From assembly GCA_030067055.1 (NCBI GenBank), contig JASJAL010000332.1:1-5987 (forward strand): 5,987 nucleotides of DNA, in the 5' to 3' direction. Each line of letters begins with the position of its first letter. Within the stretch, counting starts at the first letter, position 1. The stretch comes from Kiloniellales bacterium (lineage in GTDB: Bacteria > Pseudomonadota > Alphaproteobacteria > Kiloniellales > JAKSBE01). A model generated the notes under the pieces. The model did not search any database. It saw only the letters and a list, made by a program, of their open reading frames with translations, and had not been told where the DNA came from. A program made the translations under genes and the position numbers. Below, piece after piece: positions 4,221 to 5,987 of this stretch.

Positions 4221-4249
4221 TTGACGAATCGCCTCGACTTCAGTAATTT
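4221..4249 (+). promoter_or_regulatory. Putative promoter of the GbsR-family regulator
   Basis: TTGACG (4221-4226, five of six matches to the -35 consensus) and TAATTT (4244-4249) are 17 bases apart, the optimal sigma-70 spacing. Transcription would start near 4256, giving a leader of about 24 nt with GGGA ahead of ATG 4280. The -10 box overlaps the first bases of the inverted repeat at 4247-4264, as expected for a repressed promoter. CGAGGC (4201-4206) and GCCTCG (4231-4236) form an inverted pair around the -35 box. Confidence 0.5.
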
Positions 4250-4264
4250 CAGTTCATACAGAAA
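4247..4264. promoter_or_regulatory. Candidate GbsR operator 1
   Basis: TTTCAGT-TCAT-ACAGAAA, an 18-bp inverted repeat in which six of seven arm positions pair. The arms are identical, base for base and with the same 4-bp spacer, to the site at 4859-4876. It covers part of the predicted -10 box and start point of the regulator gene and ends 15 bp before its ATG, so binding should block transcription. That the GbsR-type protein is the binder is inferred from position and from the second copy. Confidence 0.55.
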
Positions 4265-4279
4265 TAACGGGAACGACTT

Positions 4280-4816
4280 ATGAAGCTGACGCCGGTCATG
4301 GAGAAGTACGTCCTCCACTGGGGGGAGATGGGGGCCCGCTGGGGCACCAACCGCTCGATCGCCCAGATACACGCGCTGCTCTACCTGGCGCCCCAGCCCC
4401 TGCCGGCGGAGGAGATCGCCGAGACCCTGTCGATCGCGCGGTCCAATGTCAGTACCAGCCTGCGCGAGCTGCAGTCCTGGGGCCTCGTGCGGGCGACCCA
4501 CAACCTCGGCGACCGGCGCGACCACTTCGAGGCCCAGCAGGATCTCTGGCAGATGCTCACGGTCATCGTCGAGCAGCGCAAGCGCCGCGAAATCGATCCG
4601 ACCCTGACCATGCTGCGTCAGTGCGTCCTCGAGTCCGACGCGGATTCCGAGACGCCGGCCGTGGTCAAGGAGCGGATCGCCAACATGCTGGGTTTTCTCG
4701 AGCGCCTGACCGGCTGGTACGAGCAGGTCTCGGGCCTGCCCAAGGCGACTCTGCTCGCCCTCATGAAGATGGGCGGCCGGATCGCCAAGTTCGTCGGCAA
4801 ATCGCCCGCGAGCTGA
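4280..4816 (+). CDS. GbsR/MarR-family transcriptional regulator
   Basis: A 178-residue DNA-binding protein of the GbsR branch of the MarR superfamily. Members known in other bacteria are mostly repressors, some answering to choline or glycine betaine. The N-terminus MKLTPVMEKYVLHWGEMGARWGTNRS fits the family. The winged helix-turn-helix spans about 26-85: PLPAEEIAETLSI (40-52) is the positioning part, ARSNVSTSLRELQSWGLV (53-70) the recognition helix, and LGDRRDHFE (76-84) the wing. The remainder is helical, likely for dimerisation. It starts at ATG 4280 with a modest GGGA upstream. It heads a same-strand cluster with a 64-aa gene, a DUF4166 gene and a membrane-protein gene. Paired 18-bp inverted repeats before this gene and before the next suggest it represses both itself and its neighbours. 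No gbsAB or betaine-transport gene is in the window, so the osmolyte role of the family's founder should not be assumed. Confidence 0.93.
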   Translation: MKLTPVMEKYVLHWGEMGARWGTNRSIAQIHALLYLAPQPLPAEEIAETLSIARSNVSTSLRELQSWGLVRATHNLGDRRDHFEAQQDLWQMLTVIVEQRKRREIDPTLTMLRQCVLESDADSETPAVVKERIANMLGFLERLTGWYEQVSGLPKATLLALMKMGGRIAKFVGKSPAS

Positions 4817-4858
4817 CGCAGTCGCGGCAAGAAGGGGCCAAAAAATTTTGCCAAGATG

Positions 4859-4876
4859 TTTCAGTCTGAACAGAAA
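4859..4876. promoter_or_regulatory. Candidate GbsR operator 2
   Basis: TTTCAGT-CTGA-ACAGAAA, flanked by G and C that extend the symmetry to 20 bp (one central A/A mismatch per arm pair). Arms and spacer length match operator 1 at 4247-4264 exactly. It lies in the 82-bp gap between the regulator stop and the ribosome binding site of the 64-aa gene, ending 22 bp before that ATG. A possible -35 TTGCCA (4848-4853) precedes it, but no convincing -10 is seen. It suggests a second, regulated promoter inside the cluster. Confidence 0.55.
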
Positions 4877-4886
4877 CAACAGAATT

Positions 4887-4892
4887 AAGGAG
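4887..4892 (+). promoter_or_regulatory. Strong ribosome binding site fixing the start of the 64-aa gene
   Basis: AAGGAG with a 6-base spacer to ATG 4899, the best Shine-Dalgarno in the window. It rules out the upstream in-frame ATG at 4848, which lies before operator 2 and has no such site. Confidence 0.8.
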
Positions 4893-4898
4893 CAAGCA

Positions 4899-5093
4899 AT
4901 GGCACGACGCTTCTGGGACTCGGACTTCGCCGGGCTCTGGTTCGGCCTCCGCAATCCCCGCGACCTCAGGGTCCGCAAGCCGCTGCCGCCGCGCCCCCAG
5001 GGAGCGGCGGATCTCGAAGCCAAGCCTTCTGGCATCGTCGAACGGAACCGCCGGGCCCGGCGCGAGAAGTGGGCGCTGCGCACAACGCGCTAG
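4899..5093 (+). CDS. Small basic protein of unknown function (64 aa)
   Basis: I do not recognise a family. Translation from ATG 4899 gives 64 residues with 14 Arg and 3 Lys against 7 acidic residues, for a net charge near +10. The N-terminal third is aromatic (FWDSDFAGLWFGLR, 5-18), the middle is proline-rich (KPLPPRPQG, 27-35), and the C-terminal part is a likely basic helix (IVERNRRARREKWALR, 46-61). There is no signal peptide, membrane span or cysteine. That it is a real gene is supported by the strong AAGGAG site, the operator-like repeat just upstream, the tight spacing (18 bp) to the DUF4166 gene, and the long competing minus-strand frames having no start signals. It may bind nucleic acid or a membrane surface through the basic helix, or act as a partner of the DUF4166 protein; both are inference. 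Confidence 0.7.
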   Translation: MARRFWDSDFAGLWFGLRNPRDLRVRKPLPPRPQGAADLEAKPSGIVERNRRARREKWALRTTR

Positions 5094-5111: not shown

Positions 5112-5798
5112 ATGACCATCGGAACCGCGACTTTGGCGAGAGTGTCGGAGGCTGGGCCGCCGTCTTCGCGCGCCCTCCTGGCGCCGGAGGCGGCGATCGC
5201 CGAGGCGCTGGGGCCCGCCGCCTGGGGCCGGCTCAGCCCGGCGATCCGGGCGCGCTTCGACGCACGGGCCCTCGCTCTCGGCCCGGTTCATCATCGGGGG
5301 GTGATGGGCGCGGTGCGCTGCTCCCGGCTGGGCTGGCTCTTCGCCCAGGCGAGCCGGCTGTTCGGCACACCGCTGGCGCCTGGCGGCGGCCGGGACGTGC
5401 CGGTCGAGGTCCGGGTATTCCGGGACCGGCGCCGCAACGGCGTCACCTGGGAGCGCCGCTACCGCTTTCCCGGCCGCCCGCCGGTCACCGTCGCCTCGAC
5501 CAAGTGCCGCGACGCCGAGGGCGGCTTCCTCGAGGTGACGGCGGGCGGGCTCGGCATGTGGCTCGACCTCTTCGAGGCTGATGGCCGGCTCCGCTTCCGC
5601 AGCCGTGGCTACTTCATCGAAGGGCTCGGCCGGCGCTGGACCCTGCCGGATTGGATTACGCCCGGTGAGACCTTGGTGGAGCACGGCGACGAGCCGGAAG
5701 GCCGCTTCCGCTTCACCATGACCATCCGCCACCGCCTGTTCGGCGAGACCTTCTTCCAGGACGGGGTGTTTCAGACGCTCGAGAAAGAGGAGACCTGA
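5112..5798 (+). CDS. DUF4166 domain-containing protein
   Basis: A 228-residue protein matching the DUF4166 pattern over about residues 30-222. It has LSPAIRARFD (41-50), a hydrophobic segment LGWLFAQASRLFGTPLAP (73-90), VPVEVRVFRDRRRNGVTWERRYRF (96-119), GGLGMWLDLFEADGRLRFRSRGYF (145-168), and a C-terminal LPDWITPGETLVEHGDEPEGRFRFTMTIRHRLFGETFFQDGVF (178-220). The alternating polar and aromatic strands suggest a mostly beta fold, perhaps barrel-like. No catalytic residues are known for the family and no signal peptide is seen; residues 73-90 are unlikely to be a true membrane span. DUF4166 also occurs fused to Rossmann-fold oxidoreductase-type domains, but here it stands alone. ATG 5112 follows a GGGGGGA run. 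It sits between the 64-aa gene and a membrane-protein gene that begins one base after its stop, so these are very likely one transcript. Confidence 0.85.
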   Translation: MTIGTATLARVSEAGPPSSRALLAPEAAIAEALGPAAWGRLSPAIRARFDARALALGPVHHRGVMGAVRCSRLGWLFAQASRLFGTPLAPGGGRDVPVEVRVFRDRRRNGVTWERRYRFPGRPPVTVASTKCRDAEGGFLEVTAGGLGMWLDLFEADGRLRFRSRGYFIEGLGRRWTLPDWITPGETLVEHGDEPEGRFRFTMTIRHRLFGETFFQDGVFQTLEKEET

Positions 5799-5799
5799 G

Positions 5800-5987
5800 A
5801 TGGAAGCGCTGCTGTGGCTCGTGCTCTTTCAGGCGCCGCTCGGCGCCTTCGACATCGTCTACCACCACGAGGTCACCGAGCGCCTGACCTGGAAAGCAAG
5901 CGCCGCGCGCGAGCTGCGCCTCCACGCCTGGCGCAACGGCTTCTATGTCCTGATCTTCCTCTCCTTCGGTTGGCTCGCCTGGGAAGG
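5800..5987 (+). CDS. Small membrane protein, N-terminal part (cut by right edge)
   Basis: ATG 5800 starts one base after the DUF4166 stop (TGA 5796-5798), with AGAGGAG at 5786-5792 as ribosome binding site, so translational coupling is likely. The 62 visible codons show a hydrophobic segment (2-18, LLWLVLFQAPLGAF), the conserved-looking loop FDIVYHHEVTERL (17-29), a charged stretch with ARELRLHAWRN (36-46), and a second hydrophobic segment (47-61, GFYVLIFLSFGWLAW). This fits an integral inner-membrane protein of several spans. I recall similar D-x-x-Y-H-H/Y-H-E proteins annotated only as hypothetical membrane proteins, and I cannot name a function. The His/Glu residues near the membrane face might bind a metal, but that is speculation. 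Confidence 0.8.
   Translation, partial: MEALLWLVLFQAPLGAFDIVYHHEVTERLTWKASAARELRLHAWRNGFYVLIFLSFGWLAWE

Follow-up and report, generated by a model that had tools for sequence, protein, structure and literature searches.

Introduction

CydE, the GbsR-type repressor of cydEAB in Alishewanella WH16-1, belongs to a sister group of the regulator studied here (PMC6096048). In the available passages of that report, one footprinted site reads TATTTCAGAAATTTCTGAAAGTTCA and footprinted site 1 contains TTTCAGAAATTTCTGAAA, which is two mismatches away from the pattern TTTCWGT-N4-ACWGAAA considered below; footprinted site 2 is unrelated in sequence, and the genes under control encode cytochrome bd. CioR of Chromobacterium violaceum is likewise a GbsR-type autorepressor of its own operon, as judged by gel shift, but that operon encodes cytochrome bd and the passages compared give no site sequence (PMC11837568). 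GbsR of Bacillus subtilis, acting at gbsAB/opuB, is autoregulated, binds an inverted-repeat operator with a 4-bp spacer and, according to the passages compared, represses by a roadblock downstream of the start site, as we propose below for a second operator; it differs in its A/T-rich operator, its choline-responsive osmoprotection genes and its divergent gbsR gene, and the passages on it mention no T tract (PMC7396694).

Other families offer two further parallels. In the trpR-trpBA intergenic region of Chlamydia trachomatis, the passages compared place a YtgR operator between a regulator gene and a downstream operon, with transcripts from the upstream promoter ending there; however the upstream gene encodes a protein other than YtgR, which is of another family, and an internal promoter exists (PMC6504234). 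At the RNA polymerase I terminator, as described in the passages compared, a DNA-bound protein (the Reb1/Nsi1 roadblock) acts with a T-rich stop stretch ~15 bp upstream; this system is eukaryotic and a hairpin is reported as required, whereas most sites here are without a clear one (PMC12366685). Roadblock termination by LacI has been tied to Mfd, again as far as the passages compared go (PMC10310618). No bacterial repressor with a T-rich or U-tract roadblock was found by title and abstract among the listed matches of our literature search, and of the listed papers whose full text contains both half-sites, none was relevant by title.

Here we analyzed a stretch of 5,987 nucleotides ("the window") from a Kiloniellales bacterium (contig JASJAL010000332.1, assembly GCA_030067055.1). 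An initial annotation, made from the sequence alone, had proposed that a gbsR-like gene in it is bracketed by two operators of a kind not known to be described for this alphaproteobacterial GbsR branch. The footprinted site of CydE matches; therefore the operator type is known already, for a sister group (PMC6096048, in the passages available), while on this branch and its DUF4166 operon no publication was found among the listed matches of our searches of open-licence PMC papers.

Results

Two repeats around the gbsR-like gene

Two copies of TTTCAGT-N4-ACAGAAA lie where they had been reported, at 4247-4264 (O1) and 4859-4876 (O2), with equal arms and the spacers TCAT and CTGA. The window holds five strand-matches to the repeat at up to three mismatches, four of which are O1 and O2 read on both strands; the shuffled window gave 0.01 on average and in 0/200 shuffles reached five. 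In neither copy is the dyad perfect: TTTCAGT on the left faces TTTCTGT when the right side is read in reverse, so that 12/14 arm positions are symmetric. Moreover the repeat extends beyond its earlier description, since TTCAGT at 4239-4244 and ACAGAA at 4879-4884 are extra half-sites in register. The initial annotation was also right that O1 overlaps the predicted -10 of the regulator gene and that O2 precedes the 64-aa gene, the end of O2 lying 22 bp upstream of the ATG of that ORF. Sites before gbsR are called first sites and those behind it second sites; the features are as follows.

4221..4249, plus strand: gbsR promoter, -35 TTGACG (4221-4226), 17 bp, -10 TAATTT (4244-4249); top sigma-70-type match in the O1 stretch
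4239..4244, plus strand: left outer half-site of O1, TTCAGT (offset matched in 42/92 first sites)
4247..4264, no strand: core of operator O1, TTTCAGT-TCAT-ACAGAAA, over the -10 and the presumed transcription start; conserved upstream of orthologues
4267..4272, plus strand: right outer half-site of O1, degenerate (ACGGGA; offset matched in 71/92 first sites)
4280..4816, plus strand: gbsR-like gene, 178 aa, MarR/GbsR-type winged helix regulator and presumed binding protein (Pfam MarR_2, 2.5e-10)
4840..4849, plus strand: A/T tract AAAAAATTTT, ending 10 bp before O2; presumed stall and release tract (TTT register in second sites)
4859..4876, no strand: core of operator O2, TTTCAGT-CTGA-ACAGAAA; presumed elongation roadblock (no promoter signal at 42 second sites)
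4879..4884, plus strand: right outer half-site of O2, ACAGAA, 9 bp from the inner half-site (offset matched in 28/42 second sites)
4899..5093, plus strand: 64-aa ORF, first gene after O2 (ORF cluster c175, seen in 2 loci)
5112..5798, plus strand: DUF4166 gene of the presumed controlled operon (PF13761, 1.7e-29; cluster c3, in 29 loci)
5800..5985, plus strand: start of the next gene, which runs off the window; N-terminus like that of the L013 epimerase-DUF1731 protein

The ribosome-binding site may take up part of the right outer half-site at O1; at O2 a Shine-Dalgarno-like AAGGAG (4887-4892) is separate from the right outer half-site. Searched to E 0.01, the 64-aa ORF matched nothing in Pfam or NCBIfam. 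The gene at 5800 has the same position as in L013 and, by eye, a membrane N-terminus similar to that of the epimerase-DUF1731 protein there. Named families behind gbsR orthologues include DUF4166, epimerase, DoxX, DUF2269 and DCC1-like proteins, among others. Elsewhere in the window, an imperfect palindromic repeat (TGTCATGCCCGGACTTGATCCGGGCATCCATGG ... CCCGGGTCAAGCCCGGGGATGACAG) lies at 541-620 between two minus-strand genes; palindromic repeats of this kind are frequent in alphaproteobacteria.

Class of the regulator

The window protein carries a MarR-like winged helix domain (Pfam MarR_2 2.5e-10 and MarR 1.6e-05, both over cut-off), and a fold search with it matched MarR-type structures. 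The nearest solved structure is MJ223 (1ku9), first in both the profile comparison (1.3e-16) and Foldseek (4.4e-09); the same structure has served as template for GbsR models (PMC6207618, in the passages available). Assignment to GbsR proper is not supported by linkage, as the window gbsR is followed by the 64-aa ORF and the DUF4166 gene and by no glycine betaine synthesis or Opu transport genes. The CudC model gave 49 bits against a cut-off of 218, and no cytochrome bd gene, the linkage of the CydE subgroup, is present in the window. The paralogues beside cydA in L146 and L147 share 40 and 33% identity with the window protein, respectively. The closest locus to the window among the best 80 of 573 loci is L001, titled Kiloniellales, at 82% identity.

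Residues 53-58 in the recognition helix (ARSNVS) are invariant in 81 proteins, except for one V57I. We draw no conclusion on covariation of this helix with the site: L010 and L021 combine V59 with altered arms at both sites, but L075 has V59 and a normal site. A mutual-information scan for the choice between A5 and T5 was dropped, as its top-ranked positions all fell outside the helix.

In one genome (G017) we observed a further GbsR-type protein (L145, 2822-3394) with TTTCAGTAATTTTTGAAA at its start (2803-2820), beside what appears by eye to be a cytochrome oxidase cluster; the same genome holds an exact TTTCAGTAATTACTGAAA before a cytochrome bd gene (L108).

Conservation of the operator upstream of orthologues

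The initial annotation had offered TTTCWGT-N4-ACWGAAA as a consensus that should recur before related genes, and it does: at no more than two mismatches it precedes gbsR in the window and in 79/79 loci with upstream DNA (from the best 80 of 573 loci, among which L074 lacks sequence ahead of gbsR). Among these 80 first sites, 54 have no mismatch, 20 have one and six have two, while simulated upstream regions gave 59/16,000 at up to two mismatches and none at zero.

In a sample of 289 genomes from the class of Kiloniella litopenaei (G003), which was not selected by motif and in which GbsR-type proteins were called at E 1e-20, the exact motif occurred in 40 genomes (48 sites), as against 12 sites of a reversed control pattern. 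It was present in 15/27 genomes with a GbsR-type protein versus 25/262 without (Fisher 5e-8), and in 12 of those 15 an exact site adjoins gbsR, the site lying elsewhere in G215, G274 and G308. At up to two mismatches, an upstream site was found in 22/27 GbsR-bearing genomes; the remaining five offer weaker evidence, their best match to the looser TTTCNGN6CNGAAA having 0-2 mismatches. The exact motif is also found where no GbsR-type protein is encoded, at 28 sites in 262 genomes, above the 12 control sites in 289. In the class of Sedimenticola (G020), 27/369 genomes encode a GbsR-type protein at E 1e-40, and 25/26 loci have an upstream site at up to two mismatches (L231 has none); the 26 loci include three duplicates of earlier loci and leave out L113 and L125, which belong to the first set. 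The operator type is not confined to alphaproteobacteria, as had been supposed: judged by the titles of their records, gamma- and betaproteobacteria carry it too, as do a few Phycisphaerae/Planctomycetota MAGs.

In the MAGs titled Phycisphaeraceae, Phycisphaerales and Planctomycetota (L068, L070, L074, L077) the regulator is 56-57% identical and the operators are the same, which suggests horizontal transfer or binning error.

A cydA relative stands beside gbsR at eight loci of the Kiloniella litopenaei class sample and nine of the Sedimenticola class sample. These 17 cydA-linked relatives resemble CydE in carrying such sites, at 26 to 81 bp upstream of the regulator gene, and differ from this branch at site position 5, which is A in 16/17 of them but T in 59, A in 18 and another base in three of the 80 sites here.

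First and second sites differ in promoter signal

Second sites were found in 26/37 loci whose co-directional next gene starts more than 25 bp behind gbsR (absent in 11/37), in 2/17 with a closer co-directional gene, in 4/24 whose next called gene is oppositely oriented and in 1/2 with none; these neighbor counts are approximate, as the ORF caller misassigns some genes. For comparison we used 92 first and 42 second sites: 80 and 34 from the main set plus 12 and 8 from hand-chosen alphaproteobacterial loci. Excluded were eight cydA-linked loci, L185-L187 (more than two mismatches), L195 and L199, the duplicates L119 and L127, and L205 (which overlaps L190).

When first sites were aligned by their dyads, TTGACA appeared at -26 and TAATTT at -3. 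Exact TTGAC in columns -30 to -20 was present in 62/92 first sites versus 0/42 second sites, and the 42 second sites had no sigma-70 match above shuffles (median rank 0.52 versus 0.017 at first sites). In the window, the best match at O2 (TTGCCA/CAGAAA) scored 3.6 versus 10.7 for the strong promoter at O1. Reading the T tract of the second site as the -35 of a promoter was rejected, its scores equaling those of shuffles.

The initial annotation had taken O2 for an ordinary promoter operator, where the repressor would prevent initiation from a separate promoter of the 64-aa/DUF4166 operon. In its favor, TAA, TTA, TAT or TTT stands ahead of TTTC in 16/42 second sites, and TTGAC occurs 28-30 bp upstream in 3/7 inspected sites away from gbsR (L108, L109, L148); however the missing TTGAC and the shuffle-level scores at second sites, with the low score at O2 itself, argue against it, and we consider this reading unlikely, even if a promoter of a non-sigma-70 type may be present there. 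Comparison of sequences supports a dimer-type operator of the GbsR-like protein, with predicted autorepression and control of the neighboring operon, but not O2 as a second promoter operator, for which no sigma-70 promoter was found.

Outer half-sites stand 9 bp further out than the inner ones. The left one (TTCNGT, at most one mismatch) occurred at -8 in 42/92 first sites (in 8 or fewer at the other offsets tested) and in 1/42 second sites; the right one (ACNGAA, at most one mismatch) occurred at +20 in 71/92 first and 28/42 second sites. Half-sites at +29 (21/92 first, 7/42 second) partly resemble start-codon sequence and are not claimed. As a separate observation, the four-base center (columns 7-10) is T-rich in second-site operators and A-richer in first sites.

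An A/T tract in fixed register before second sites

A TTT ending exactly at column -10 was found in 33/42 second sites versus 9/92 first sites, and in 0/42 second sites did it end at -9 or -8. The difference persisted in similarity-thinned sets (22/31 second versus 4/50 first sites; Fisher 4e-9). Ten further non-duplicate gammaproteobacterial second sites showed the exact register in five cases, giving 38/52 overall; L220, an eleventh such site, lacks the register and was kept out of the 52. A/T runs of at least six occur in 49/52 second sites, but those of L184 and L188 are out of register, so that five of the 52 are without an in-register run of this length (L053, L060, L074, L184, L188). 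The tract in the window, A6T4, spans -19 to -10, which we take to be, from the dimensions of RNA polymerase, the expected position of the RNA-DNA hybrid in a polymerase stalled by O2.

Upstream of the tract, an adjoining stem of at least 5 bp with three G-C pairs was present in 12/52 second sites and missing in 40/52; by a looser energy criterion a hairpin was counted in 13/52, window included. The 32 nt before the window's tract fold at -10.0 kcal/mol into two small hairpins, and folding upstream of the tract was slightly stronger than in shuffles across the 52 sites (mean z -0.66). Such hairpins, with clear stems in L012, L013, L019, L027, L064, L211, L221 and others, would fit a reading in which the tract is the U-tract of an intrinsic terminator of gbsR, with O2 behind it through compact packing and the operon served by an unrecognized promoter or by read-through. 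We regard this as improbable: packing leaves the single exact column at which the tract ends unexplained, most sites have no such stem, and many tracts run A-then-T, as does that of the window. Since second sites have no sigma-70 promoter, O2 is most likely not a second promoter operator; the A/T tract at a fixed distance suggests a roadblock or terminator.

Sites away from gbsR

In 30 genomes, hand-chosen among those of the best 80 loci, the exact pattern occurred in 24 genomes at 41 sites, 34 of them at gbsR, as against two sites of the reversed control pattern. Exact sites away from gbsR lie 25 bp before an NAD-binding gene (L105), 14 bp ahead of an NAD-binding/DoxX-DUF2269 pair, with gbsR ~38 kb away in the same contig (L109), near a DUF4166-epimerase pair (L107) and 261 bp before the gene for cytochrome bd subunit I (L108). 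A sequence-only profile built from 76 sites and run on the same 30 genomes added a site 17 bp before a small operon that ends in a saccharopine dehydrogenase-like gene (L148; its middle gene has no Pfam match), a two-mismatch site 34 bp upstream of DUF4166 in L107, and a two-mismatch site 69 bp upstream of a DCC1-like gene with a catalase gene behind it (L149, 889-3024); the catalase neighbor may point to a role in oxidative stress. Sites thus accompany distant relatives of the operon genes in L105, L107, L109, L148 and L149. Of these, the sites in L105, L107 and L149 belong to genome G012, where they and gbsR itself are on four contigs, all short. Three further exact matches (L106, L110, L111) have no evident target gene and are either chance occurrences or further regulon members.

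That a different protein, for instance a CydE paralogue, binds these sites instead is suggested by the near-identity of CydE-type operators but is very improbable, given that 24/30 genomes encode a single GbsR-type protein (E 1e-6) while the site profile has matches in 30/30 (E up to 1), and that sites occur at gbsR even where the next gene lies on the other strand.

Discussion

These comparisons give good support to a GbsR operator. Since the second site appears to be part of the gbsR transcript and not of a promoter, we prefer a repressor roadblock at O2, and the full reading, in which both repeats are operators of the protein encoded between them, O1 serving classical repression and O2 a roadblock with assisted release, seems to us fairly probable. 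Binding by the window protein, a halt and release of polymerase at O2, a shared transcript of gbsR and the operon and relief of repression by a signal are inferred, along the following lines: i) A dimer is predicted to bind TTTC(T/A)GT-N4-AC(A/T)GAAA, aided by the half-sites 9 bp outside; ii) At O1 the bound repressor would cover the -10 and the start of the gbsR promoter, blocking initiation (autorepression); iii) At O2, past the gbsR stop codon, it would halt polymerase coming from the gbsR promoter after the gbsR mRNA has been made; iv) The RNA end of the halted polymerase would lie on the A/T tract, where a weak RNA-DNA hybrid would favor release, and the 64-aa/DUF4166/epimerase operon would thus be doubly shut while some repressor could still be produced; v) Removal of the repressor by a signal would yield a single long transcript across gbsR and the operon.

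More tentatively, such sites might constitute a conserved bacterial roadblock terminator, in which the bound protein replaces the terminator hairpin at an A/T tract mostly without a stem. Because initiation would be blocked as well, the arrangement would be a two-stage lock, leaky for the repressor gene but not for the operon; it would span alpha- and gammaproteobacteria and parallel the Reb1/T-rich terminator of RNA polymerase I.

For the family, the operator consensus is backed by many genomes and comes with a candidate regulator for genes of unknown function. The candidate regulon is small and coherent, comprising DUF4166, epimerase-DUF1731, NAD-binding/DoxX, DUF2269 and DCC1-like genes. 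Should the proposed action of the second site hold, such sites would amount to a simple and widespread kind of terminator under ligand control, and to a counterpart, at the level of elongation, of the roadblock reported for Bacillus GbsR.
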